Of a DNA stretch of 64,000 bases, positions 19,031 to 63,876 are shown piece after piece; positions within the stretch are counted from its first letter, which is position 1, and each line of letters opens with the position of its first letter. Source of the stretch: Craspedostauros australis (Eukaryota > Bacillariophyta > Bacillariophyceae > Mastogloiales > Achnanthaceae). A program made the position numbers and the translations under genes. The stretch lies in NCBI GenBank assembly GCA_026770025.1, contig JAMXDE010000007.1, forward strand, positions 1,426,001 through 1,490,000. The letters are read 5' to 3'. The notes under the pieces were generated by a model. The model searched no databases. It saw only the letters and a program-made list of their open reading frames with translations, and was not told where the DNA came from.

Positions 19031-21853
19031 TCACGAGCATGCCAACGGGTTCGGTTCGGGGCAGTCCAAGCCTGCATCGCTGATGGTGTACGTCTTTGTG
19101 CTGTCCCCGCCGCACATGTCTTCTTGGACACAATTCTGGCACTGACCCGGGTCATCCCGTCCAGGTCCTTCTTTGCAGACTCCCTCTTTGATGATGATAT
19201 CGTTGCTTGCTTGTGGGCTGCTGGCAGCGTTCGCGCATGCTGCGATTCCATCGCACGCACCCTTTTCGATGGTCACGCTTCCTTTGAAGTCCTTCGAGTT
19301 TCTATAAATGGAGTTGCAAGCAGATGGACCTTGGCACGCATTCTCCCCAACAAATACATTGGCCACAACAGGAGGGGTGCTCGCAGATGTGACTTGCCCA
19401 TTGCGCTTTGCCAAGTCGGCGCATGAACCAGCACCATTGCAAGCTCCATTCGCGACTCTCACATTGCCATATATTTTCAGACCGAAGCTTTGACAACTAC
19501 TGCCCCCGACACATGCCGCTGGTCCGATCACTCTGTAGCCAACCTCGTCGAGGTTAGGATTGTTGCCCATCCGACCAAAAGCATAGCATCCTGCATATCC
19601 CGTGCAGCTCTCGAGGATGATGGTATCAGGGGCCACGTATCGGCATGCATAAGTGTCTGTGCACGAATCTTCACTCACTGTCATGACCCCAACACCCTGT
19701 GTGATTGAACAAGAGAAACTTGTGTCCGTGCAGCACTTTCCATCGCATGCTGTCGTCACAGCGTTCCCATTGCCAGTGAACAGTTTCTTCTGTTTTGCAA
19801 CTGTTGCCAACAGAGCTTCGGTCACGCTCGCATCGTTCTTGATCTTGTTGAAACGTTTCTGGGCTTCCTCCAGTGTCACAACCTGAGGAGGCGTATTGTC
19901 TCCGCATCCAAAGATGCTCTTGATCATCCTATCTGTGCCATCAGTCAGGGCATTCACTGAAGCAATGAATTCGGCGCATGTGCCTGTATCATCGTCACAG
20001 CGGAGTCTATCATCGATGGTGTTGAAGGTGGAGTCGATATTGCCCGGACCTTCAAGGCATCCGACCTCAAGCAAACGATTGTCGACGGTTGGACCTGCCG
20101 ATGGAATGCTTGACGGGAGCTGAGAGGGAGCCATGGAAGGAAGTGAACTCGGAGCAGCAGATGGTAGAGCGGATGGGAGATCGGATGGCATGCTCGATGG
20201 TAGCTGAGACGGCCCAGCAGACGGAATACCCGTCGGACCAGCAGATGCGAGGCTGGTCGGATGTGCCGATGCAAGTGGGGTGGGGACGGGCGTGGGAAAG
20301 AATGTCGGACAATCCGTCGGCAATGTATCCTTCCCGATGCAGTACTCGGGAACCATATCGCCCGTCGGATTGTAATTGCTGTCTCTACCTCCCTTCGGAC
20401 ATGCTCCGTCCGCATCGTTGACAAGGTAATACTCGTCCCACTCACACTCCGACTCCGTCATACATCCCTTGCAACTGCTGTCACCGCCAATGCACCCACC
20501 AGGCGGAACAATGATGTCCGTTCTCATCCTGTCACTGAATCCCAGCTTCTCACATGAGCTGTTATGACCGGCGCAGCCACCATCGCCGATCGTCAGGCTT
20601 CCTTTGTACTTGCCACCAGGACCACGATTGACAGTGGAATGGGCATCCTTGCAGGCATGATCGCCAACACAAGCATCCGATCCAATGTGGATATGACATT
20701 GCATTCGAATGGATGATGATTCTTGTGCGATGCGTCGTCCAGCTGCATTGCATGCTTCTGATCCGAGACATGCACCGTTCTGGACGATCACGTCACCATA
20801 GGATCGATGTCCCACTCCCTCGCATGATCGTGCACTCGTGCATGCGACTTCGCCCACGAAAGTGATGCCAACGAGGATGGGATTAGGATTGGCGTCGTTC
20901 TGATTCATTGACTCACATGCACTGGTCCCAGTGCACGAAGAGTCCAGAATGAGAGGATTGGGTCCCATGTCCTTGCATGCCGAGTCCCCAGTGCACGCAG
21001 TGATGGCAACAGTCATGAATGGCAGTGTGGTGTGCATAGCAGAGGCGGGAGAATCTGCTGTGGAAGCACACCCGGACGATCCTTGGCAACATGGGTTGGT
21101 GACGGGTGGCGATTGGGCCATGCCGATGGCCATGCATGTTGCCTTCATCGCATCCGGCCGTTCGGTGACAAGGGCCATCCCGGTATCTGCCAGCAAGGTG
21201 AGCTGCTCAGCGAGCGCTGCGTTCATCGCATAGCGGTTGAATAGCTTGCGCGCCGCTCCCTCGCCCAAGTCTCCTGCGCATCCGAAGTAGTTCTGTAGGT
21301 CTTGGGACTTCTTGACAGCAAGGACGGCCTCACGGCATGATGCCTTGGAAGCGTTGCACATGATGAGCTTGGCTTCAGCTTCAGATGATGTGAGGGTGGT
21401 GGTACCTGTGGGCTTGCAGATGACGACGATGGTGGAATCGAAGTCAAGGTGCGTCTTTGGTGTATCCGTGATGGGAGTTGGTGCGGTTGTCGGTGCTGAT
21501 GTTGGTGGTGATGTTGCTTCAGATGGTGGCGAAGTCGGTTCAGGGGTCTCCTCCGTGGTTGGCTGCGATGTGGGGAATGTCGCAGAGGCGAAAGTCGGAG
21601 AAGCCGTTGGTTGTCGGGTACCGCCGGCAGACTTGTTCCTCTTGGCACCCGCCTTCGAGTTTCTCACTTCGCCGTCGCCATCGAGGGGATTGCCACCAAT
21701 GGTGACCTTCAACCGACGAGTGGCTTCCAAGGTGAGGAACATCTCATCGACCACATCTTTGGTCATGTCACGGCGGAGGTGAAGGCGAGACTTGGCTGTC
21801 ACGAACGAGGGAGCCAGGATGATGGTGAGAATGAATGCTTTGATGTTGATCAT
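19031..21853 (-). CDS. Secreted Cys-rich repeat protein with duplicated domain and Pro/Ser mucin-like linker
   Basis: The 940-residue single-exon protein starts with a clear signal peptide (MINIKAFILTIILAPSFVTA). Residues ~80-135 are a Thr/Ser/Pro linker. Two homologous halves follow (about 135-500 and 590-935), separated by a linker of repeated P-S-x-x-P-S units. Each half opens with a helical Cys-containing module (FGCAGD...ARKLFNRY in the first, IFGCGD...AQKRFNKI in the second). A run of ~25-residue repeats follows, with strand-like V-x-I, then GxCxGxxAC. That spacing suggests a right-handed beta-helix stabilised by Cys pairs, as seen in many large diatom surface proteins (from memory). 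No membrane anchor is seen at the C-terminus (PNPLACS). Likely cell-wall or extracellular; enzymatic function is not indicated. The two halves imply internal duplication. Confidence 0.8.
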   Translation of the reverse strand: MINIKAFILTIILAPSFVTAKSRLHLRRDMTKDVVDEMFLTLEATRRLKVTIGGNPLDGDGEVRNSKAGAKRNKSAGGTRQPTASPTFASATFPTSQPTTEETPEPTSPPSEATSPPTSAPTTAPTPITDTPKTHLDFDSTIVVICKPTGTTTLTSSEAEAKLIMCNASKASCREAVLAVKKSQDLQNYFGCAGDLGEGAARKLFNRYAMNAALAEQLTLLADTGMALVTERPDAMKATCMAIGMAQSPPVTNPCCQGSSGCASTADSPASAMHTTLPFMTVAITACTGDSACKDMGPNPLILDSSCTGTSACESMNQNDANPNPILVGITFVGEVACTSARSCEGVGHRSYGDVIVQNGACLGSEACNAAGRRIAQESSSIRMQCHIHIGSDACVGDHACKDAHSTVNRGPGGKYKGSLTIGDGGCAGHNSSCEKLGFSDRMRTDIIVPPGGCIGGDSSCKGCMTESECEWDEYYLVNDADGACPKGGRDSNYNPTGDMVPEYCIGKDTLPTDCPTFFPTPVPTPLASAHPTSLASAGPTGIPSAGPSQLPSSMPSDLPSALPSAAPSSLPSMAPSQLPSSIPSAGPTVDNRLLEVGCLEGPGNIDSTFNTIDDRLRCDDDTGTCAEFIASVNALTDGTDRMIKSIFGCGDNTPPQVVTLEEAQKRFNKIKNDASVTEALLATVAKQKKLFTGNGNAVTTACDGKCCTDTSFSCSITQGVGVMTVSEDSCTDTYACRYVAPDTIILESCTGYAGCYAFGRMGNNPNLDEVGYRVIGPAACVGGSSCQSFGLKIYGNVRVANGACNGAGSCADLAKRNGQVTSASTPPVVANVFVGENACQGPSACNSIYRNSKDFKGSVTIEKGACDGIAACANAASSPQASNDIIIKEGVCKEGPGRDDPGQCQNCVQEDMCGGDSTKTYTISDAGLDCPEPNPLACS

Positions 21854-48278: not shown

Positions 48279-50123
48279 ATGTCCAAAACACAAGACCTGC
48301 CAAGTCACTCCTCCTGTCCCACAACAGATAGGTTGTTCCATGCAGTCATTGTGGGAGTTGTTCCATTGCTTGAGCAATGTCTGAAAGATGCAGGTGACCC
48401 TGATGTCAACAAACTTGTCGACAGCAGTAGCAGATCCTTGTTCCAGAAAGCATGCTGCTCTGGCATGCTCATTGTCATTCGATTCCTGGTTGAACAATGC
48501 GGTGTTGATGTTGATGCCCTTTCCAAAGATGGGATGAGCGCTCTCCACTTTGCCTGTCAACATGTGTTGGCAAGTTCCGTGGACAGATACCTTGCGATCG
48601 TGGAAGACAGTATTGTTGTTTGTTGCGATTCTCTCTGCTATTTCATTACGTTGCTACCCTGATCCTCTTTGTGCACTCTGTTGCTCTGCCCGATGCTCTC
48701 GGCGCATCTCTCCGACTATGAGTCAGTACGCAAGATGCTCTCTCGCTGTTGCTTGTATTCTCTTGTTGATATTGCGTGTTCACACCACGCGATATTCCGT
48801 ACTTGATGCGTACTCCGCATACAGTACATACTACGTCGTTTCGCTCTCTGCTGGCCCACTACTCCGTGAGGAATTGCCAATATCTTGTATCAACTCCTCC
48901 TTGTATATCCACAATCTCAATGTCCCTTGGTCATCGAATCTTTGCCTTCTTGATCTGATGTGGAGACAGATGCCAATGTGGTGACACGATGACATCTTGT
49001 CAATGTCAGCTGTTGGCTTTCACGGTCCTTCAGACTCCATGTTCCATCGATGATGTGATGGTCTGGCGAGGATGTCGTCATTTGAGGTTTAGTTGGGAAG
49101 TACATCGAGTTTCACTCGATGCCGTACGTTCCCTTTGGTTGATGGACGAACGATGTTCCTGATGCTCTCAGAAATCGTTGATTGCAGATTTCCTCCAGAA
49201 ATTCTGTTCATTTTCATGTGCTCGATTTGTGATGTGATTTTGACACATCACAGTTCACTATTGAAACGAATGTAGTTGTACCGTCCGTACATGTGTATAC
49301 AAGAATAGCAGGTGAACGATGCACATACACGCATGTACATCCCGACAAACGTAACAAGTTGGATATCGTCCAATACCTTGCACGTGACGCTGGCAGCAAT
49401 CTACTCCTGCCCTGTCATGATGGCCTCTTGCCCATCCACATCACATGCCGCAACAGATCCACCAAGGTTGCCTTGTACCTTGCATCAAATCATGACTGTG
49501 GCGTCAACCTCCCTGATACCAACGGCATGAATGCCCTGGTCCATGCGTGTATCTCAGGTAACATCACTATAGTCAACAGTCTGATACAGACCGCATGCAT
49601 TCATTTGTCCGCTTGCGATCATCTGGGGCGCTCTGCTCTCCATCCTGCATGTCTGCATGGCAACATAGCCGCTGTGAAGCATCTTGTCCTCGAGCACAGT
49701 GCGGACATCACAGCTCTAGGCCACAGCAAGGACTCTCCCCTCAGGTTGGTAAAATGGAGTGGGAAGCTGGACATTGTGCAGTTCTTTGCTGAACATGCTG
49801 TGTCTATCGCTTCATGTTGGAAGCTGACTATGCTGTCCACTGTCACCCACATAGCAGCATCTCCTCCACAGCCATTCCACAAGAATACCCACAATAGGGT
49901 GAGAGTCTTGATCCGCCATGGTCGCTCTTCGTGTTTCGTTGTTGTTTTGTTTTTTCCCGTCTCGTTTTTTGGCGTGTGTGCGACGCAACAAAACAGTCAA
50001 AGCGCGTGTTTTCACGTTGCACAGAGGAAGCGTGTGCAGGTTTATCACGTGACCGGAAGTGTGGGGGTGAAACCTGTCTGTTCTGAAAATTATGACTGTG
50101 TGGAGCGATCATTTGCTCGATGA
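48279..50123 (+). pseudogene. Ankyrin-repeat protein gene interrupted by a solo LTR
   Basis: The start at 48279 has a strong context (ccaccATGt). Ankyrin repeats are visible on both sides of an inserted LTR (48565-49347): DGMSALHFACQ before it, and KLDIVQYLARDAGSN, DGLLPIHITCRN, NGMNALVHACISGN, LGRSALHPACLHGN and GKLDIVQFFAEH after it. The reading frame is the same on both sides, and the insertion point lies inside the helical part of one repeat. AACAT before and AACGT after the LTR (one base from the LTR on the left) may be a decayed 5-bp target duplication. After position ~49860 the sequence no longer looks like ankyrin, and the frame ends at 50123. Large ankyrin families are common in diatoms. 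With a 783-bp insertion holding stops, the gene is very probably inactive unless the LTR is spliced out. Confidence 0.75.
48565..49347 (-). repeat. Solo LTR of the Copia B family, minus orientation
   Basis: It runs from TGTTGGCAAG to CATCCCGACA on the plus strand. It is the inverse of the LTR at 55964-56741 and is related to 63084-63876. The part next to 49347 is nearly identical to the other LTR (translated stretches differ by few residues), while the other half is more diverged. No internal element sequence adjoins it, so it is a solo LTR, probably left by recombination between two LTRs. Confidence 0.85.
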
Positions 50124-50599
50124 GGGTCCTACTCGTGGTTTGTGCGGTATCGTCTGTCCATCGACACTCCTTGTTCTGATTCGGCCAGATTCGGGAATTG
50201 GCACTATATCTGCACAAACCAGTGTCACATCTGTCGGAACGTGTGTGTACTCGGATGTGTATGCATCAGTCACACTTGCTTGCCGCTATCTAGACTATTT
50301 GGTGGCGGAATCACGACACAAAACTATGACGTCACAGCGATACCATCGCTGTACCACGAGGACACCGCGATACTACGACGCCAGGACACCGCGATACCAG
50401 CGAATACCACAGTATCCACCACACCTGACGTCACATCAAGGCCTTACCTACCAGGTCTACAGGAATGCAATATGTTTTAAACACTCCATCAGATTCGATC
50501 AATCATCAGATTCAACAAAACCCGAGAACGGAACAACGACGAGACAACGAGAGAAAGACAACAACGTTGATGATCAAGTCAACATCAACGAGCAACATG

Positions 50600-53500
50600 A
50601 GAGCAATGTGCATGGAGGTGCAAGAGGATTGCACCAAGCAATGAGAGCAAGGAAGAGATGGATCAAGAGAGCATCTTGATCATCTCATTCCCCACGCTCG
50701 CTCACCAACAATCAATAGCAACAACAGTAACAGTAACAGAAACACTTTCGACAAAGAGTGTGACTACTACCGATTCTCCGTGCGCGGAGTCTTCCAACAT
50801 CTGGACGTGGTCACCATCAACGCGATCAGAGGAGTACTCTGCACAGCACATGCCACTCATCAAGGAGGAAAGGGATACATGGACGACTTCCAAGACAGCA
50901 ACACGAAGAACAACGACACCGGTTTCACGAGCACTGGCAACTTCAAGGGGACCTGCCACAACTGTGGTGTGCACGGTCATAGATCTGCGGATTGTCCGGA
51001 GCGTAAGAAATCGAACAACAACAAAATGAACGGAAAGCGCAACAACAAGAACAAGGAAAGCGGCTTCAACAGGAAGTGCAACTACTGCGGCATCTTTGGG
51101 CATCGCGAGGCGGAGTGCCAAAAGAAGAAGTTCAACAAGAAGAAGAAGGCCAACGAGCAGGCCAACACAGCAATGGAAGGACACAACAAGAGCGGCCACG
51201 AGATGGTGCTCTCAGCAAGAGACATGCCGCTCTGCATGTTGGTCTCCGACGACTACATCGAAGACTCCTTCTTTGATAACTTTGAATACATTGGGAGTGA
51301 CGACGAAGTGGAGGACCATGAGATCGGCCCGGAGTAGCTCAGTGATGAGCCCATCATCCATGAAGTGGATCCGCGACGCGAAGTGAGCTACGAATGCTGC
51401 TTCAACGCGAACAACCTGATTGGTCCATACAGCGACGGAGCTGAGATGGGCAACGAGGCCATCGACAGCGATATCGAAGAGGCCATGAGTGAAGAGGATG
51501 ACGACGAGGTCAATGAGAACGACAGAGGTCGAGACGAGACGAACGGCGGCGTGGCGCCGCCCCCTCCAGCGGCGGGGAACAACAGATCGAGAATCTTCGA
51601 CGAAGATGACAGCGACGAAACAGAAACGCATCCAGATGACAGTTTCAATCCAAACGAGCGTGTCGTTTATCCAACGGGCATCCAATTCTCACCGGTCGGG
51701 AATCCCAACAGATCGGATCACATCCACTGACATGACACGATCCCCTACGGAACGGCAACAGCATTGACGATTCAGAAGCAACTCATCTTTGACACCGTGA
51801 TGGCAGCAGGAATGCAAATGTACCCAGGAACTCCCGAAGGGGCACTCATGCCAATATGGGTGAACATGGTGAGCACCATCCTGTCTGAGAACTTCAGATC
51901 AATCGAAGAGATTCTCGCCAACTCGGTCATCATCAACTGATTGTTGGAAGCAGCGAATACAGAAACGATCCCAGAGACGGATCTGCACTACATCCTCGGA
52001 GGGTGTATGCATGTGCTCTTGCGGGAGCGACCACGTGTCACACCATACGACACAGTCACCGGAACTCATCGGAACAGCACAGTTCCATCGGGCTTCGCAC
52101 AACTACCCGACGACATGGATGACAAGGAACATCACAATCCGTACAACAAAGACAGAGTCCACGAAGACGAAGGCGATGGCAGCTTTGACGACGAGATAGC
52201 TGCAGCCGCCATGGAGCAGCTCCACGAGCTGAGTACCAAATACAAGGACAAGGTCAACAAGGACAGCTGGCTCGCTGACAGCGGAGCTTCATGTCACATC
52301 GTGAATTCGGACGCCGCTCTCTTCAACATGCGGCACATCAAGTCCTTCGTCCAAGTGGGAGACAGCACGAAGCTGGACTCTCCCAAGATGGGATCCATTC
52401 GCTTGAAGGTCAAGCAACGAGACAACACCAGCCACATCATCCGGCTCGATGATGTGAAGTACACACCAAAAATGGCGGTGAACCTTTTCTCAACGAACAA
52501 GGCTCTGTACAACGGTTACCAGCTTGGTAACAACGGCATTCTGATGGACATCATCAATGGATCCGGAACGAAGATCGTGTTCGATCGAGTCTTCCCCACA
52601 TCCAACGGATTCATCACAGGAGTGCAGATGCATCCCATCATGCCAACGGATGACGACAAGGCTTGCACAGCCATCATCAAGAATTCATCCAAGGAGATCA
52701 GCGCAGTGAACTTGCATCGAATGCTTGGCCACGCGCCACTCGAAACCATGAAGCGGACAGCCGCCCAATACGGATGGAAGATTATCGGTGAGTTGCCGGT
52801 ATGTCGCGACTGCGCGGTCGCGAACGCAAGAGTGAAGAACATTCCGAAAGCAACCATTCCGAGAGCAACTCGCCGTGGCGAACGACTCTTCATTGACATT
52901 AGTTACACTAAACACATAAGCTTCGGAGATAAACGCTACTGGACCCTGATCGTGGACGACTGCATGGATCACTGCTGGAGTTTCTTTCTCAAGAACAAGA
53001 GTGACCAACCAGGGTACATCAAACGATTCATCCAAACAATCAAGTCACAGACTGGTGACCAACAGATCATCTTCCGAGGTGACAACAGCGGAGAGAACAA
53101 ATCCACGCAAGATATTCTCATCGATGCAGGACTGAACGTGAAATTCGAATTCATGGCATCGAACACGCCGCAACAGAACGGCAGAGTGGAACGCAAGTTC
53201 GCGTACCTCTACACCAAGATCCGCTCCATGCTCAACGGAGCACAACTCGACGAAGAGTATAGACATGGCCTGTGGGCAGCAGCTGCTAGCACTGCCACCG
53301 CCATCGCCAACATCACTGTAGCAAAGAATCAGAAGGAGTCACCACATTGACAATTCTTCGGAAGCGATCCACCATACGCGGATGCACTCCGCACTTTCAG
53401 AGAGGTGGGTGTTGTGAAGACTACCTACAGCGGGATTACCGCCAAACTCAAGAATAGAGGAGAAGAGATGGTGTTCATTGGATATGCACACCAACATGCA

Positions 53501-55943
53501 TCAGGGGTCTACAACATGTACAGACCATCAACCAAGTCACTGATCTGCTCACGTGATATCAAGTGGCTCAACCAATCATACGGACAGTTCCGTGGCTGGG
53601 CATCAGTACCGAACATATCCAACGAAGCAGAAACAACAGACGCAGACGGCTTCACAACCATCGGACGGAAGGGAGCAACGCCAAGGACGACAACGCGTCA
53701 AACATCGGAAGCGAAGAGAGTATCCTTCGCTGACAGCAACAGGTACTACATCCTATCGGACAGCGACGATGAGGATGATGAAGACGATGGAATAGTGACT
53801 CAACTGATCCATAACGACGAGGAAGATCGGAGCAAATCCAATCATGAGGATGACGAGATCCTACCATCCAGCAACGAAGCCAACGATGACACAGGCATTA
53901 CTCCTCCAAACACACCAGCGAGGTCTACACATGACACACCATCCAGACCTCCACCAAGCAAACCAAACAAGCGTGACGTAGCTAGAAAGGAGAGGATCCG
54001 ACGTCATGAAGCACGAGGCAGGAAGGGAGAAGCTAATCCCAAGCCGACTACAGGGAAGAGTGTTCCCAGAGCTCTGCGTGAGCTCGCAGACTTCAACGAA
54101 CGAGGTCGAAAGGAAGAAGGTTACGAGAGCGATCCATCATCCGATGAGGCGAGTGACGAGCTCAGCGACGAGATAACCGACGAATCCAACAACGAAACTA
54201 CAGATGACGAAGAAATCGTAGACGAGGAAGAAGAGATCGAGATCACTCATCACAGCACAACTGGACTGTACGGAATGAATGCAATCATCACCGAAGTACC
54301 AGCGATCGACATTGGACTGTCGATGCAGGACGAGAACAAGGAACAAGAGAAGCACATCGAACCAACAACATTCGATGGAGCCTTCAATCACCCAGATCCC
54401 ATCCATCGCAAGGGATATCGAGCAGCCATCAAGAAGGAGTTCGACTCCATGGATACACGCAAGGTGTACAGCAAGATCAAACGAGACGCCATTCCACACG
54501 GCCGCAGATGCTGCAAGTGCAAATGGGTCTTCAAGTTGAAACGCGACGGCACACATCGAGCGCGACTCGTTGCATGTGGCTATTCACAAATCGCAGGAGT
54601 AGACTTCCAAGAGCATTACTCACCCGTCATCCATGACGTAACATATCGGGTCATGATGGTGATCATGCTGATCAAGAAGATGGACTGCGCACTCGTCGAT
54701 GTCGTAACGGCATTCCTACATGGAGACCTCGACGAGGAGATCTACATGAACTGTCCCAACGGGATGGATCATCAACCAGACGAAGCCCTGACCCTACACA
54801 AGCCAATCTACGGACTTGTGCAGAGCGCCAGGCAATGGTTCAAGATGTTGGTGTTGACCCTCAAGAACATCAACTTTGAACAGAGCGCGGCAGACCCGTG
54901 CCTGTTCTACAGGAAGACGAACGAAGGAAGCATGATTGTGGCCATCTACGTGGACGATTGCTTCTGCTGCAGACTCCAAGGCACTGGAGACATTCCTGAA
55001 GGACATCCAAGGCAGCAAATTCAAGGTAACAATCGAGCGCGGACTCGGAGACTACCTCAGCTGCAACATCGAACTGAACCATGACAAGACTAGAGCGACA
55101 TTGCGTCAACCACACCTCATCCGACATCTCATCGAAGAGTTCGGAACCAAGGTTGAGAAGATGCAACGCTATGGGACACCGGGAACCCCGGGTCAAATCA
55201 TCGTACGACCATCCGAAGATAACGGACTACAGAAGGTCGGACCGGAGGAACATGCCGAATACCGCCGAGGCGTCGGTATGCTACTCTTCCTCATCAAGCA
55301 CTCGCGACCAGATATCGCGAACCCTGTGAGAGAACTCTCCAAGGTATTGATCGGGCCCACCAAGGCCACAATGAAGGAGATGTATTGGATCATCAAGTAT
55401 GTGATCGATACAAAGGACTATGGATTGAAGATCCATCCAGCACGTCCAGACGACGATGGCTGGGACATAGAGCTCTTCTGCGATAGCGAATATGCAGGAG
55501 ACAAGAACACGAGAATCAGTGTAGGAGGGTTCATCCTATACCTGTGCAAGGTTCCAATCCTTTGGCGGTCCAAGGCACAGAAGGCCGTCACACTCAGCTC
55601 ATCCGAAGCAGAATACATTGCCCTTTCCGAAGCGGCAAAGGAGATCTTCTTCGTCGTGCAGCTACTCGAAAGTGTGGGCGTCCCAGTGAAGACACCGATC
55701 AAGGTCCGTGTGGACAACATCGGAGCAATCTTCATTGCCAAGAACCCATCAACATCCCAACAATCGCGGCACATCGACGTGCGCCATCACTACGTAAGGA
55801 ATATGATAATCAACAAAACCATCGAAATCATTTTCGTCAAATCCAAGCAGAACACAAGCGACCGATTCACCAAGAACATCAAGGCCGACTTACAACGTGA
55901 GCACGAGAAGTCGTACCTTGACACATCAAGAACATTCGAATGA
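50600..55943 (+). pseudogene. Copia B copy 1 coding region: gag zinc knuckles, protease, integrase, RT, RNase H
   Basis: Two gag zinc knuckles of CX2CX4HX4C form (CHNCGVHGHRSADC and CNYCGIFGHREAEC, about 50.95-51.12 kb) are followed by an acidic region, a protease with WLADSGASCH (52.27 kb), a pre-integrase motif with LHRMLGHAP, and an integrase with a FIDISYTKHI strand and a GDNSGEN motif (52.9-53.2 kb). RT follows with ALVDVVTAFLHGDLDEEIYM and IYVDDCFCC (54.7-54.97 kb), then RNase H with CDSEYAGD and SSSEAEYIALSEA (55.47-55.64 kb). The order is Copia type. It is a degraded relic. Confidence 0.88.
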
Positions 55944-55963
55944 CGGAATGCACACAGGAAGGG

Positions 55964-56741
55964 TGTTGGGATGTACAAGCGTGTATGTGCATCGTTCACC
56001 CGCTATTCTTGTATACACATGTACGGACGGTACAACTACATTCGTTTCAATAGTGAACTGTGATGTGTCAAAATCACATCACAAATCGAGCACATGAAAA
56101 TGAACAGAATTTCTGGAGGAAATCTGCAATCAACGATTTCTGAGAGCATCAGGAACATCGTTCGTCCATCAACCAAAGGGAACGTACGGCATCGAGTGAA
56201 ACTCGATGTACTTCCCAACTAAACCTCAAATGACGACATCCTCGCCAGACCATCACATCATCGATGGAACATGGAGTCTGAAGGACTGTGAAAGCCAACA
56301 GCTGACATCGACAAGATGTCATCGTGTCACCACATTGGCATCTGTCTCCACATCAGATCAAGAAGGCAAAGATTCGATGACCAAGGGACATTGAGATTGT
56401 GGATATACAAGGAGGAGTTGATACAAGATATTGGAGATTACTCATGGAGTAGCGGGCCGATAGAGAACGAAATGACGGAGTATATACCAAGTACGGAGTA
56501 CGTATCGTATACAGAATATTGCGTAGTACCAACATGCAACATTGAGAGAGAGAGAGAGTACGAGCAACAGCGAGAGAGCATCTCGCGTGCCGGCTTATAG
56601 TCGGACCAACAGCAGATACCAGGAGCATTGGGAGACTCCAAGAGCATTGGACTAGCAACGTAATGAAATAGCAACAGAACTATAACAACCACTACCGTCA
56701 CCTACAGTTGCAAGAGTATCCGTGAGCGGAACTTGCCAACA
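55964..56741 (+). repeat. 3' LTR of Copia B copy 1 (778 bp)
   Basis: It begins TGTTGG directly after a GGAAGGG purine tract and ends CCAACA, giving TG...CA ends with a 6-bp inverted terminal match. It is inverse to the solo LTR at 48565-49347 and the LTR at 63084-63876. A (GA)n run lies at about 56543-56560. Confidence 0.88.
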
Positions 56742-57662
56742 TGCATTATGTGAGCTGTGCGCTGCGCACCCCGAAACCCACAGCCAACACATATTTGAGG
56801 ATCACATGGGCGTTGCATGAATCGCAATGGCGTCATAAGGTGAGAATGATGGTGCACCATGGCAAAGAGGAGCAATGATCCAATGGGTGTGAAGGAAGTT
56901 GAGTCACGCAGCAGAGAAGCATCTGCTCAATAGATGGCGAACAATGATGACACTATAGTAGAGTCTACAATAGTACTGCGTTGCACAATCGCACTCTACT
57001 GAAGTCAACGCTGTGCACTTCTCTCCCCCAAGATGAAGGAGCACTACCGCTTAGCAGACACACACACAAACTACCAGACAGACTAACAAGACAACACAAG
57101 ATGCTGACATGACGGTATACCCTACAAGACCGATAGAACTGAAACCGAAGTCGGGATTGATGCCACATGATGGGAAGAACCCGGATCTAGTTTTCCTGTT
57201 GGACAAAAGAGACATTAATACAGATGTTGGATTTTACCGCTGCTTCGTCCGTTGGGCATGGCCGGCGGACACATTTCCGCCTGGTCGGCGTGATGGCTGA
57301 ATCCTTTCCAGTACATATTCCGCGGCGATTCTCTGATTCCCACCAGGCTTCTCTCGTTGAATGATGACTGTCGATCGTGCGAAATTGGTTGAACGATCAG
57401 ACCGAGACATGGTGAGCAATCGAATGTATCACTTCGCTCACCCCTCTGTCTCAGTGGTATTATACTATTCACTCGTATTCTGTACTGCAACGTACCCTAC
57501 TCTATTGCGGCATGATGTCGGGTATTCGTAGGACGATGATTTCATGAAGTGTGCTGGACCTTCAACTTCTTTATCTCACAAATCTCAATCATTTCACAAA
57601 CCAAAAGCAAACCAACGCCACCAACCCACACTATCAACCGACACTACCAACAACATCCAACC
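56742..57662. other. Intergenic region upstream of the RRL-repeat gene
   Basis: About 920 bp. The last ~80 bp is a CA-rich leader (CCAACCCACACTATCAACCG) typical of the 5' UTR of a highly expressed gene. No domain-bearing frame is seen in the rest. Confidence 0.4.
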
Positions 57663-58472
57663 ATGAAGATCACCTCAGTCGCAACCCTTTTCATCGCCGC
57701 CGCCATGGCCACCAACTTCCACCTCGTGGCTGCCAGTGGAACCAAACAAGGCACCATCCGTGGCCGTCGCTTGAGCTCCAGCGCATCCTCTGGCTCTGGC
57801 TCTGCCTCTGGCTCTGCCTCCGGCTCAATCTTTTCTGCCTCCAAGGACACTTCCACCAGCAAATCCAGCTCTGATGGCCGTCGCTTGAGCTCCAGCACTT
57901 CTGCTGGCTCCGGATCTGTCTCTTCTGCAGATTCGCCAGACTCTCCTGGCGCTTCTGCCAGCAAGTCCGGCTCCCACAGCCGCCGCTTGAGCTCCAGCGC
58001 ATCCTCTGGATCTGGCTCTGCCTCTGCCTCCGGCTCAATCTTTTCTGCCTCCAAGGACACTTCCACCAGCAAATCCAGCTCTGATGGCCGTCGCTTGAGC
58101 TCCAGCACTTCTGCTGGCTCCGGATCTGTCTCTTCTGCAGATTCGCCAGACTCTCCTGGCGCTTCTGCCAGCAAGTCCGGCTCCCACAGCCGCCGCTTGA
58201 GCTCCAGCGCATCCTCTGGCTCTGCCTCTGCCTCTGCCTCCGGCTCAATCTTTTCTGCCTCCAAGGACACTTCCACCAGCAAATCCAGCTCTGATGGCCG
58301 TCGCTTGAGCTCCAGCACTTCTGCTGGCTCCGGATCTGTCTCTTCTGCAGATTCGCCAGACTCTCCTGGCGCTTCTGCCAGCAAGTCCGGCTCCCACAGC
58401 CGCCGCTTGAGCTCCAGCGCATCCTCTGGATCTGGCTCTGTGTCTTCTGCGTCCTCCAGTTCATCGGAGTAA
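57663..58472 (+). CDS. Secreted Ser-rich precursor with RRL-spaced tandem repeats (silacidin-like candidate)
   Basis: The 269-residue protein starts at 57663 (tccaaccATGa) with a signal peptide (MKITSVATLFIAAAMATNFH...VAA). The rest is about 45% Ser, with Gly, Ala, Lys and Asp. Seven RRLSSS motifs divide it into alternating peptides of ~30-35 residues: type A (SSSASSGSGSASASGSIFS, then KDTSTSKSSSDG) and type B (SSSTSAGSGSVSSADSPDS, then PGASASKSGSHS). A pair of A and B makes a unit of 70-72 residues, present three times with near-identical DNA, followed by a final partial unit. RRL/RXL is the processing site reported for silacidins and other diatom biosilica proteins, and Ser runs there are phosphorylated. 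Unlike silacidins, this protein is only mildly acidic. Function is therefore an inference: precursor of Ser-rich silica- or wall-associated peptides. It could also be another secreted Ser-rich protein. Confidence 0.75.
   Translation: MKITSVATLFIAAAMATNFHLVAASGTKQGTIRGRRLSSSASSGSGSASGSASGSIFSASKDTSTSKSSSDGRRLSSSTSAGSGSVSSADSPDSPGASASKSGSHSRRLSSSASSGSGSASASGSIFSASKDTSTSKSSSDGRRLSSSTSAGSGSVSSADSPDSPGASASKSGSHSRRLSSSASSGSASASASGSIFSASKDTSTSKSSSDGRRLSSSTSAGSGSVSSADSPDSPGASASKSGSHSRRLSSSASSGSGSVSSASSSSSE
57765..58406 (+). repeat. Three in-frame tandem repeats of 216/210/210 bp
   Basis: Units start at about 57765, 57981 and 58191, and a partial fourth starts at about 58401. Differences are mostly in the length of the (GSA) stretch. 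The high DNA identity indicates recent expansion or gene conversion. Confidence 0.85.
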
Positions 58473-60180
58473 ATAGGCTCCCCAGGTTCCCCGACTCTGC
58501 AGACATTCCAGACGTCCCAAGTCGTCCCTCTCTTGAGTGATCTCGTCGGACTCCGGCATCTAAAGAGACGTAATCAGCGCACTCTACTTTACACATCATG
58601 CATTTAACTTGCCAAGTTGCCTCACATTTCGGCCATCAGACGGACCAAGCAGCCCCACACGACCAATCGCGAACCGGAAACCTTGGTCAGTCAACAGACG
58701 GAAAAGGCAATAGCAATGGCAGAATAATCAATAGGAATGCACTGCTTTACCAACAAAAACCCTATCCTGCTTCCAAAACATTGTGTTGTCGTGCCTGCTC
58801 GAGATTCCATATCCATAGTGATTTTTTGTGTGTGCCTCCGAAGGCACTTTCTCTAGTGGCTAGTGGCTAATTTCCGGTTTTTTGGCACTTTTTGGTAATT
58901 ATTGGTAACCATTGGCCTACCGCCGACGGCACAAGCAACCATTCGATGAGCTGATGGCCGTTGGCCAACATCTTTGCACCATTAGAAAGAGGAGAGTGAG
59001 AGCTCTCTGTTGATGTGTTCATTGTAGGCAAACGGTCTCCGCTTGCTGTTCATCTTGATGCCTGTTTTAACCCTTTATCGGCCTTTTTCGTACGGACGAC
59101 GTACGGACGTAGCTTCGGAATTTCATCGTTGGTAACCATTGGTAACCGCGTAGAGTCTACGACATTCTGGTACAGAAACTTGTTGCTTCTTCGTCCAATC
59201 TCGACCGACTGCCTTCCAAAGACCCGCATCCAATTCTGTTTCGTCTGTTGCACAAGTGAATGGCATGGCTGTATTCGTCGCTTCATCCTGCTTCGGGTGG
59301 TGTGCTGGTCAGCGGTCCAGAATGCTTTTGTGTGTTGCTTTGGGTGTTTGAAGTCAGTCACTAATTCTCGTGACAGCCATGATCATCGATCCGTGAACGC
59401 ACAAAAGCTCGCGCCAAAAATTATCGTGCGTTTTTACGTGTTGTAGATTCGTACTGTGCTGCTCACCTGAGTCTCTCTACTTGATGCAAGGTTGTGCCTC
59501 GCGCTGATGTCGGATCATCGTGCCGTTGCTTTCAATAGACGCATTACCCTCTCCTGCACCTGCCCATGTAGTCTTGGTCTTCGAACCTCAGTTCCTCCAA
59601 AGATATATCAATTGCAAGCTATTTTCGTCACTTTACCACGTCCTATCCTCGCGAGGAAACATCGCTTCCTGATCACGCGCCACAGCTGTCTTCATTGACG
59701 CCGGTTGTTACACCCTCTCAAAGAGTAGCTACATATCTCACGCTCATGCGATGGGTGGGGTCGTCGACACAGTCGCCGCTCGAGCTCTATCAAACCGCGT
59801 TCGAATCGTTCTGTGGAGGTAGCCTGATGTTCTACACTGGTCTTGAGCGCCGCTAAGGCCAATCGAACACTGGCATCTACATTTCGCACGCGATACATGC
59901 CAAAATGCGCGCACATTGCATGGAAATTATGCGCGGCGCAGTTGCACATGCTCAGTGATGCGGAAGATCCAAAGAAGAGCGGTCAGAGCATGGCGAGATT
60001 CGACTCCTCAGTGCGAAACAGTCGACTCTACTATATTCTGGACTGCTATTGTGTGCTGCTGATATCCAAGGGATCATTGCTCTCCCAAGCAGGATGGATA
60101 CAATGATACACATGCATCCAAGTTGCTTTTGCCAAGATGGTTGCTGGTGTACGGAATTTCGGAGTAGAACTGAAACGCTA
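58473..60180. other. Long intergenic region
   Basis: About 1.7 kb. It holds a short tandem GTACGGACG pair at about 59091-59111 and repeats of TTGGTAACCATTGG near 58900 and 59133. No gene, tRNA or rRNA was recognised. Confidence 0.4.
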
Positions 60181-63083
60181 TGTCGAAATGTGTGTACTCG
60201 GATGTGTATGCATCAGTCACACTTGCTTGCCGCCATCTAGACTATTTGGTGGCGGAATCACGACACAAAACTATGACGTCACAGCGATACCATCGCTGTA
60301 CCACGAGGACACCGCGATACTACGACGCCAGGATACCGCGATACCAGCGAATACCACAGTATCCACCACACCTGACGTCACATCAAGGCCTTACCTACCA
60401 GGTCTACAGGAATGCAATATGTTTTAAACACTCCATCAGATTCGATCAATCATCAGATTCAACAAAACCCGAGAACGGAACAACGACGAGACAACGAGAG
60501 AAAGACGACAACGTTGATGATCAAGTCAACATCAACGAGCAACATGAGAGCAATGTGCATGGAGGTGCAAGAGGATTGCACCAAGCAATGAGAGCAAGGA
60601 AGAGATGGATCAAGAGAGCATCTTGATCATCTCATTCCCCACGCTCGCTCACCAACAATCAATAGCAACAACAGTAACAGTAACAGAAACACTTTCGACA
60701 AAGAGTGTGACTACTACCGATTCTCCGTGCGCGGAGTCTTCCAACATCTGGACGTGGTCACCATCAACGCGATCAGAGGAGTACTCTGCACAGCACATGC
60801 CACTCATCAAGGAGGAAAGGGATACATGGACGACTTCCAAGACAGCAACACGAAGAACAACGACACCGGTTTCACGAGCACTGGCAACTTCAAGGGGACC
60901 TGCCACAACTGTGGTGTGCACGGTCATAGATCTGCGGATTGTCCGGAGCGTAAGAAATCGAACAACAACAAAATGAACGGAAAGCGCAACAACAAGAACA
61001 AGGAAAGCGGCTTCAACAGGAAGTGCAACTACTGCGGCATCTTTGGGCATCGCGAGGCGGAGTGCCAAAAGAAGAAGTTCAACAAGAAGAAGAAGGCCAA
61101 CGAGCAGGCCAACACAGCAATGGAAGGACACAACAAGAGCGGCCACGAGATGGTGCTCTCAGCAAGAGACATGCCGCTCTGCATGTTGGTCTCCGACGAC
61201 TACATCGAAGACTCCTTCTTTGATAACTTTGAATACATTGGGAGTGACGACGAAGTGGAGGACCATGAGATCGGCCCGGAGTAGCTCAGTGATGAGCCCA
61301 TCATCCATGAAGTGGATCCGCGACGCGAAGTGAGCTACGAATGCTGCTTCAACGCGAACAACCTGATTGGTCCATACAGCGACGGAGCTGAGATGGGCAA
61401 CGAGGCCATCGACAGCGATATCGAAGAGGCCATGAGTGAAGAGGATGACGACGAGGTCAATGAGAACGACAGAGGTCGAGACGAGACGAACGGCGGCGTG
61501 GCGCCGCCCCCTCCAGCGGCGGGGAACAACAGATCGAGAATCTTCGACGAAGATGACAGCGACGAAACAGAAACGCATCCAGATGACAGTTTCAATCCAA
61601 ACGAGCGTGTCGTTTATCCAACGGGCATCCAATTCTCACCGGTCGGGAATTCCAACAGATCGGATCACATCCACTGACATGACACGATCCCCTACGGAAC
61701 GGCAACAGCATTGACGATTCAGAAGCAACTCATCTTTGACACCGTGATGGCAGCAGGAATGCAAATGTACCCAGGAACTCCCGAAGGGGCACTCATGCCA
61801 ATATGGGTGAACATGGTGAGCACCATCCTGTCTGAGAACTTCAGATCAATCGAAGAGATTCTCGCCAACTCGGTCATCATCAACTGATTGTTGGAAGCAG
61901 CGAATACAGAAACGATCCCAGAGACGGATCTGCACTACATCCTCGGAGGGTGTATGCATGTGCTCTTGCGGGAGCGACCACGTGTCACACCATACGACAC
62001 AGTCACCGGAACTCATCGGAACAGCACAGTTCCATCGGGCTTCGCACAACTACCCGACGACATGGATGACAAGGAACATCACAATCCGTACAACAAAGAC
62101 AGAGTCCACGAAGACGAAGGCGATGGCAGCTTTGACGACGAGATAGCTGCAGCCGCCATGGAGCAGCTCCACGAGCTGAGTACCAAATACAAGGACAAGG
62201 TCAACAAGGACAGCTGGCTCGCTGACAGCGGAGCTTCATGTCACATCGTGAATTCGGACGCCGCTCTCTTCAACATGCGGCACATCAAGTCCTTCGTCCA
62301 AGTGGGAGACAGCACGAAGCTGGACTCTCCCAAGATGGGATCCATTCGCTTGAAGGTCAAGCAACGAGACAACACCAGCCACATCATCCGGCTCGATGAT
62401 GTGAAGTACACACCAAAAATGGCGGTGAACCTTTTCTCAACGAACAAGGCTCTGTACAACGGTTACCAGCTTGGTAACAACGGCATTCTGATGGACATCA
62501 TCAATGGATCCGGAACGAAGATCGTGTTCGATCGAGTCTTCCCCACATCCAACGGATTCATCACAGGAGTGCAGATGCATCCCATCATGCCAACGGATGA
62601 CGACAAGGCTTGCACAGCCATCATCAAGAATTCATCCAAGGAGATCAGCGCAGTGAACTTGCATCGAATGCTTGGCCACGCGCCACTCGAAACCATGAAG
62701 CGGACAGCCGCCCAATACGGATGGAAGATTATCGGTGAGTTGCCGGTATGTCGCGACTGCGCGGTCGCGAACGCAAGAGTGAAGAACATTCCGAAAGCAA
62801 CCATTCCGAGAGCAACTCGCCGTGGCGAACGACTCTTCATTGACATTAGTTACACTAAACACATAAGCTTCGGAGATAAACGCTACTGGACCCTGATCGT
62901 GGACGACTGCATGGATCACTGCTGGAGTTTCTTTCTCAAGAACAAGAGTGACCAACCAGGGTACATCAAACGATTCATCCAAACAATCAAGTCACAGACT
63001 GGTGACCAACAGATCATCTTCCGAGGTGACAACAGCGGAGAGAACAAATCCACGCAAGATATTCTCATCGATGCAGGACTGAA
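60181..63083 (+). mobile_element. Copia B retrotransposon, copy 2 (5' part, cut by copy 3)
   Basis: It is collinear with 50232-53129 (offset 9947 bases after the first few), with about four substitutions seen by eye over 2.85 kb. The flanks upstream are unrelated, so this is a separate insertion and not a simple duplication of the locus. It holds gag knuckles, protease and part of the integrase, and ends where the inverted copy 3 begins. It is broken like copy 1, with about three or four breaks in the part present. Confidence 0.88.
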
Positions 63084-63876
63084 TGTTGGCAAGTTCCGCG
63101 CACGGTAACCTACGATCGTGGAAGATGGTGTTGGTTGATAGTCGTTCGTTTGCTATTTCATTACTTGGCTACTCCGATGCTCTCGGTGTACGCCCGTTCT
63201 CTTGCCCGATGCTCTCGGCGCTTCAATCTGTTTCGTAGATTCGGTCTCCGACTATGAGTCGGTACGCGAGATGCTCTCTCGCTCCTCTTTGTATTCTCTC
63301 TCTCTCAACATCGTGTACTCGTCGCACACGATACTCCGTGTTCGATACGTACTCCGTATTCGACACTCCGTTCATTCAGTACTGGCTCCTACTCCATGAG
63401 TACTCACCATTTGAAGTTCACCTTTCGTATCCATGATGCTGATGCCCTTCGGTCATCGGATCTTCACCTTCTGCTCTGACTTGGAGACAGATGTCGACGT
63501 GGTGACATGATGACATCCTGTCGACGTCAGTAGGCGTCCTTCTGCTCTCCAGATGTCACGTTCCATTGGTGATGCAGCAGCCTGTCAGATGATATCGTCA
63601 TCTGAGGTTTAGTTGGGAAGTACCTCGAGATTCTCTTGGTACCATTGATGGATGGACGGACGATCTTCCAATTCTCTCAGAAATCGTCATTTGCAAATTT
63701 CCTCCAGAAATCTTGCCCCTTTTCGTGTGTTCCATTTCCCCTGTAATTCTGACGAATCACAGTATACTATCGACACGAATGTAGTTATACCGTCCAAGTG
63801 CGTATGAGAGAATAGCGGGTGAGCGATGCACATATACTCGTACATCTCGACATATACTCACATGTACATCTCGACA
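63084..63876 (-). repeat. LTR of Copia B copy 3, inverted
   Basis: It runs from TGTTGGCAAG to TCTCGACA on the plus strand, so it is the 3' LTR of a minus-strand element. It is related to 55964-56741 but clearly diverged, including a small duplication at the end near 63840-63870. Confidence 0.85.

Follow-up and report, generated by a model that had tools for sequence, protein, structure and literature searches.

Architecture of the gene A locus

The window analysed here is a stretch of 64,000 nucleotides from the diatom Craspedostauros australis (contig JAMXDE010000007.1, in the following C5; C5:1426001-1490000, from a genome of 74.8 Mb in 90 contigs). It carries a gene, designated gene A, whose product appears to be a secreted, Ser-rich polyprotein with repeated RRL motifs. 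The original prediction had placed a secreted polyprotein with seven RRL sites at 57663-58472, and both the coordinates and the site count proved exact: the uninterrupted predicted frame of 269 amino acids runs from an ATG at 57663 to the stop codon TAA at 58470-58472. Its parts, with positions in the window, are as follows.

57663-58472, plus strand: gene A, frame for a secreted-looking, Ser-rich polyprotein with seven RRL sites
57663-57734, plus strand: N-terminal hydrophobic segment, residues 1-24, read as a signal peptide from its hydropathy and kept in paralogs B and C
57735-57773, plus strand: pro-part SGTKQGTIRGRRL with RRL site 1 (57765-57773) at its end, conserved in the paralogs
57774-57887, plus strand: peptide 1 (35 amino acids, first kind) and RRL site 2 (57879-57887)
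57888-57989, plus strand: peptide 2 (31 amino acids, second kind, with SPDSP) and RRL site 3 (57981-57989)
57990-58097, plus strand: peptide 3 (33 amino acids, first kind) and RRL site 4 (58089-58097)
58098-58199, plus strand: peptide 4 (31 amino acids, second kind, DNA identical to the peptide 2 unit) and RRL site 5 (58191-58199)
58200-58307, plus strand: peptide 5 (33 amino acids, first kind) and RRL site 6 (58299-58307)
58308-58409, plus strand: peptide 6 (31 amino acids, second kind, DNA identical to the units of peptides 2 and 4) and RRL site 7 (58401-58409)
58410-58472, plus strand: C-terminal tail peptide SSSASSGSGSVSSASSSSSE (20 amino acids) and stop codon

The signal peptide was called solely from hydropathy, which reaches 2.37 in the best N-terminal 10-mer, and its cleavage would be placed at residue 24. 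Together with RRL-to-RRL distances of 38, 34, 36, 34, 36 and 34 residues (the motifs end at residues 37, 75, 109, 145, 179, 215 and 249), this agrees with the predicted combination of a signal peptide and regular RRL spacing. The expectation of seven peptides of two alternating kinds holds for six of them, namely three copies of a first kind (SSSASSGS...SSSDG, 33-35 amino acids) and three of a second (SSSTSAGSGSVSSADSPDSPGASASKSGSHS, 31 amino acids); the seventh is the short C-terminal tail. Tandem Repeats Finder describes the array as 3.2 copies of a 210-bp period with 97% matches, and the three second-kind units are free of any DNA difference over 102 bp.

Beyond residue 25, all but one of the 15 Arg residues lie within RRL. 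When this part of the protein was shuffled 20,000 times, no more than two RRL motifs arose, compared with the seven observed; the test treats the units as more independent than they are, given that they arose by recent copying. Separate support for the motif comes from its presence at the ends of both unit types, which have diverged from each other, as well as in the pro-part and in both of the diverged paralogs. The same region consists of 45.5% Ser, 4.9% Asp and 0.4% Glu, and each unit has one or two Lys residues, with KXXK absent on inspection of the sequence. Searches of Pfam, NCBIfam and the PDB with protein A gave no match, and neither did an Rfam scan of the window. An antisense frame of 302 amino acids across the gene (57691-58599), longer than gene A itself, is regarded as a side effect of the repeats.

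Paralogs with one and three sites

Gene A has a second copy with an identical coding sequence beyond the window, at C5:1501556-1502365, and two diverged relatives further along the contig.

C5:1551878-1552402, minus strand: paralog B, 174 amino acids, with one RLL followed by two RRL sites and with SPDSPD runs
C5:1554189-1554422, minus strand: paralog C, 77 amino acids, with one RRL site and one acidic peptide
57310-57662 of the window, plus strand: upstream region common to gene A and paralog C, read as a shared promoter and leader

Both paralogs share the signal and pro-part of gene A, and the number of RXL sites (X being any residue) rises from one in C through three in B to seven in A. The stretches between the sites differ in length and kind among the three genes, while Leu is retained at 11 of 11 sites; the RLL that stands at the first site of paralog B is a change at X and leaves RXL intact. 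This series of one, three and seven sites with its lone change at X would fit selection for RXL, although the observations are few. The paralogs' peptides, which contain (SPD)n, are more acidic than those of A, as seen from an Asp share of 10.1% in B and 9.6% in C; with Asp and Glu together at 5.3% in A, its peptides are indeed poor in acids, as had been claimed.

Gene A and paralog C are 88.7% identical over 506 aligned positions, covering the upstream region and the first 152 coding bases, and A and B have about 300 bp of 3′ flank in common. Because its 5′ part is shared with C and its 3′ flank with B, gene A may have arisen by recombination between them. Genome-wide, an N-terminal query (E up to 10) gave four matches, which are the four C5 copies only, and a 21-base unit pattern allowing up to three mismatches gave 18 matches, again only in these four copies, compared with two for the reversed control; members that have diverged too far would escape both searches.

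Plasmepsin V-like protease genes adjoin the paralogs

Plasmepsin V cleaves C-terminal to RxL and Toxoplasma ASP5 cleaves RRL (PMC9478907), and for this reason we searched the genome for pepsin-like proteases; the family was picked before its map position was known, as recorded just after the search. A search with the Pfam family Asp gave nine stretches, four of which are fragments of one gene on contig C37. With protease P2 as the query, we found six plasmepsin V-like genes, three of them on C5 (P1, P2 and P3) and one each on contigs C60, C16 and C18, and a seventh, weak match to a cathepsin D-like gene on contig C15.

C5:1524747-1526966: protease P1
C5:1549233-1551164, minus strand: protease P3
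C5:1555879-1557762, minus strand: protease P2, 627 amino acids

The three C5 genes lie within 33 kb. On the minus strand, P3, paralog B, paralog C and P2 follow each other in this order, separated by gaps of 713 bp, 1,786 bp and 1,456 bp. The other C5 members and the C60 protein are 53-62% identical to P2. For P2, the best match in the PDB is plasmepsin V (2.5e-18), followed by beta-secretase 2 (BACE2; 9.1e-11), and for P1 it is again plasmepsin V (5e-13, compared with 5.5e-7 for the next entry), which is also the closest solved relative of the C18 protein. A profile built from five sequences gave 1.8e-24 for plasmepsin V and 4.7e-17 for the next match; these comparisons cover P1, P2 and C18 singly and P3 and C60 within the profile, that is, all members but C16. 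Pfam assigns TAXi_N and Asp to P1, P2 and C18, and a 256-residue piece of the C15 enzyme, included as a control, came out as cathepsin-like. For neither protein A nor the protease profile were relatives confirmed among viral contigs.

P1 and P2 possess both catalytic motifs, DTGSS and DSGTT. A C-terminal hydrophobic anchor is present in P1, P2 and P3, with best 19-residue windows of 2.31-2.43, but not in C18; for C60, a C-terminal membrane segment was recognised by eye in the alignment. By inspection, P1, P2, P3 and C60 also have a Cys-rich insert. The pro-parts of the proteases themselves contain RXL (RRL in P2 and P3, RSL in P1, RHL in C18, RGL/RTL in C60), which might serve self-maturation. 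At C16:255629-256945, the plasmepsin V-like match lies within an open frame of 1,412 residues, possibly a fusion protein.

Residues of the Arg and Leu pockets

In plasmepsin V, the P3 Arg of the substrate is held by Glu179 and Gln222, with Ala224 making room, and the pocket for the P1 Leu is formed by Ile116, Tyr177, Phe219 and Val227; pepsin, plasmepsin II and BACE-1 have other residues at these positions (PMC4987639). We paired the positions by HMMER alignments to solved plasmepsin V chains, transferring the P. falciparum numbers by motif spacing, for P1, P2, P3, C60 and C18, leaving the C16 member aside. The partners I121, Y187, E189, F245, Q248 and A250 (P2 numbering) are invariant in all five, and the counterpart of Val227 is Ile (I253) in each of the aligned sequences. 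The flap of the cathepsin D-like C15 enzyme of the same genome reads YGSG. The plasmepsin V-like proteases keep the residues that fit the Arg and Leu of an RXL signal, and from their sequences cutting after RXL is predicted.

Silicon transporters and known RXL systems

The Pfam family Silic_transp (PF03842) matches 88 stretches of the genome. In 32 of these at least 480 of the 513 positions are covered, and 28 of the 32 are without a stop codon, so that the organism has at least 28 intact-looking silicon transporter genes, a very large family; 14 control genomes gave a single match, below the cut-off. With so many of these genes, the host is very likely a silicifier.

The exact form of the silacidin cut site is RRL. 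In diatoms, RXL motifs are described at the repeat ends of frustulin, cingulin and silacidin precursors, and it has been proposed that a diatom endopeptidase recognises RXL in general (PMC4557024). The protease acting at the RXL site of Sin1 is termed ‘yet unknown’ (PMC5525289), and in Thalassiosira pseudonana secreted proteases from Si-responsive clusters have been suggested as RXL enzymes (PMC5501833). The silacidin precursor of this species is, like protein A, secreted, highly repetitive and Ser-rich, with RXL-ended repeats (PMC4557024, PMC5501833), but by comparison with published descriptions of silacidins, protein A contains little Asp and Glu (5.3%). Likewise, Sil1p of Cylindrotheca fusiformis combines a signal, an RXL after it and tandem units with RXL-like ends, RRIL/RRNL, which are wholly missing from the mature peptides (PMC4557024). 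Protein A differs from it in having one or two Lys residues per unit, none of them in KXXK, and in being without a long acidic pro-part; for silaffins, Lys clusters (KXXK, pentalysine) are tied to polyamines and silica targeting (PMC5501833, PMC9650480). On account of its composition, we rejected gene A both as a true silacidin, given its 5.3% Asp and Glu after residue 25, and as a true silaffin, given its one or two Lys residues per unit and the absence of KXXK. The proposal of a silacidin-like precursor thus stands for the layout and the likely mechanism, with repeated RXL in a genome rich in silicon transporters, and fails for membership by composition.

The proteases P1, P2, P3 and C60 share with plasmepsin V and ASP5 the aspartyl protease family, the Cys-rich insert, the C-terminal membrane segment and the same pocket, while being distant from plasmepsin V in sequence. 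The signal is RXL or RRL in the PEXEL/TEXEL substrates as it is here; those substrates, however, are exported effectors, whereas the candidate substrates here would be wall-type peptides of repetitive build that carry as many as seven sites. Another stramenopile group, the Phytophthora clade 5 membrane proteases PxAP10-12, was described as plasmepsin V-like in a study whose tree included a Phaeodactylum relative, and has been proposed to process RXLR effectors; the accessible text reports no link to RXL wall precursors (PMC3116508). Our literature search, which left most subscription journals and all preprints outside, found no paper that mentions both plasmepsin and silaffin, and among the matches listed none was recognisable by its title or the start of its abstract as dealing with an aspartyl protease and RXL cleavage in diatoms.

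Duplication and retroelements around gene A

Gene A lies within a tandem duplication that also includes a retroelement.

50232-60691, plus strand: retroelement of the copia type together with gene A, belonging to a tandem duplication whose copies are offset by 9,947 bp

Positions 53131-60691 are 99.97% identical to C5:1497024-1504584 over 7,561 bp, with the whole of gene A inside, and 50232-53139 is 99.7% identical to 60181-63086. The duplicate is split by a nested long terminal repeat (LTR) element at C5:1489084-1497023 (window position 63084 onward), which is inserted in the copia element and whose two 793-bp ends are identical to each other. The duplication of gene A may be false, made by the assembly. 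A recent expansion of the units, as originally proposed, is borne out by their near-identity, by the 7,561-bp duplication and by paralogs with one and three RXL sites.

Inverted repeats of about 780 bp (48565-49347 and 55964-56741, 87% identical) surround the copia-type frames. LTRs are normally direct repeats, so this orientation is odd.

Discussion

We consider it about an even chance that gene A encodes a silacidin/silaffin-like, RXL-processed precursor which is cut by plasmepsin V/ASP5-type proteases and whose peptides go to the silica wall. The product would enter the endoplasmic reticulum and lose its pro-part, and the remaining chain would be cleaved C-terminal to each RRL, yielding the tail and two kinds of Ser-rich peptide in three copies apiece. 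The cutting enzyme would most likely be a membrane aspartyl protease of the plasmepsin V/ASP5 type, for example P1 or P2; the freed peptides would probably be phosphorylated on Ser and sent to the forming silica wall, where they could work like silacidins and silaffins, as polyanions that help polyamines to precipitate silica. The wider proposal is that plasmepsin V/ASP5-type enzymes are the RXL proteases of diatoms: a single ancient secretory system would read RXL in the export of malaria parasites, in secretion by Toxoplasma and in the release of silica peptides in diatoms, and a substrate family and its proteases would here have come together, or have been kept together, in a cluster. This proposal is a tentative one to which we give slightly less than even chances.

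Several observations weigh against this explanation. Among the four plasmepsin V-like loci, only that on C5 adjoins RRL Ser-rich genes; no such neighbour was found in the stretches surveyed at C60 (7.0 kb), C18 (4.1 kb) and C16 (3.2 kb), and linkage is for this reason not established as a rule. The distance to the nearest protease gene, P1, is about 40 kb for gene A itself and about 22 kb for its second copy, in DNA rich in retroelements. In P3, which adjoins paralog B, the first catalytic Asp is replaced by Ser (VSTNSG compared with VDTGSS) within a long, intact frame, and because of this replacement P3 is probably an inactive pseudoprotease. The pro-part of the cathepsin D-like C15 control carries an RXL as well (RKL). 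Selection looks weak over the first 40 codons of A and C, with five silent and four replacing differences, and for related oomycete proteases cleavage of RXLR effectors is described as nil or weak (PMC11754927).

RXL is, moreover, a common motif in proteins. In a control over 174 kb that was too small to speak for or against RRL as a general mark of the secretome, 2 of the 21 frames with a putative signal had RRL within the 80 residues after it, compared with 3 of 84 frames without a signal; any RXL was present in 14 of 21 and 34 of 84, respectively, and LRR or RLR in 2 of 21 and 7 of 84. Both copies of A as well as B and C fall outside this control because longer antisense frames overlap them or because they are shorter than 100 amino acids. 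The two signal-bearing frames with RRL are P2 itself and a DUF7640 protein at 19031-21853. The latter, encoded on the minus strand, looks like a secreted protein of 940 amino acids; it has PT-like stretches, and its residues 46-48 are RRL (ATRRLKV). Between P1 and P3, at C5:1540769-1543825, there is another DUF7640 gene, which has a PT repeat.

An unlikely alternative is that another secretory protease cleaves protein A at RRL and the peptides reach the silica, with the plasmepsin V-like genes being neighbours by chance. The solitary case of C5 among the four loci (albeit over short stretches), the probable inactivity of P3 and the secreted proteases of Si-responsive clusters proposed as RXL enzymes in T. 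pseudonana (PMC5501833) all speak for it. However, the Arg and Leu pocket residues fit an RXL signal, and chance proximity is disfavoured by the choice of the aspartyl family ahead of its map position and by a uniform-placement estimate, in which the probability that one of the four plasmepsin V-like loci lies within 0.7-5 kb of the B-C block is 0.0003-0.0008. This figure is rough, since the C5 array enters it as a single locus and the clustering of genes is disregarded.

It is improbable, in our judgement, that plasmepsin V-like proteases cut protein A but that the peptides act outside silica, in mucilage, adhesion, signalling or defence. Such a role would agree with a composition that is neither silacidin- nor silaffin-like, having few acids and no KXXK. 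To our knowledge, oomycetes make no silica wall. The presence of plasmepsin V-like enzymes in that group (PMC3116508) would likewise be in keeping with a role of this sort, but the very many silicon transporters of the host and the RXL repeats described in silica-associated proteins (PMC4557024) argue for silica.

We regard it as very unlikely that gene A specifies an uncleaved, disordered Ser/Gly-rich wall or surface protein in which the RRL repeats result from tandem DNA duplication only. The near-identical units, being recent copies, do mean that seven RRL sites are not seven independent observations; yet three genes and two unit types that have diverged all preserve RXL, with variable stretches between the sites, and 14 of 15 Arg residues after residue 25 belong to sites.

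RR is the classic dibasic site, and kexin substrates are commonly polyproteins with a layout like that of A. Despite the RR pair and this layout, a furin/kexin-type convertase cutting between or after the two Arg residues is highly improbable, because the RLL of paralog B would lose the dibasic site and not RXL, Leu is present at every site of A, B and C, and nothing of the RRIL/RRNL motif is left in mature silaffin peptides (PMC4557024).

For the explanation that we prefer, processing of an RXL precursor by plasmepsin V/ASP5-type proteases, the new and most valuable point is a linked family of such proteases with a fitting Arg/Leu pocket. As a candidate family located beside RRL precursors, it makes the question of the diatom RXL protease directly testable, and the position of the sister genes next to plasmepsin V-like genes suggests a testable identity for the protease of diatom cell-wall peptides. 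With genes of one, three and seven sites, one of them freshly duplicated, the dose and kind of peptides can shift by unit duplication. If the explanation is true, it would connect the making of the diatom wall with the parasite PEXEL/TEXEL systems.
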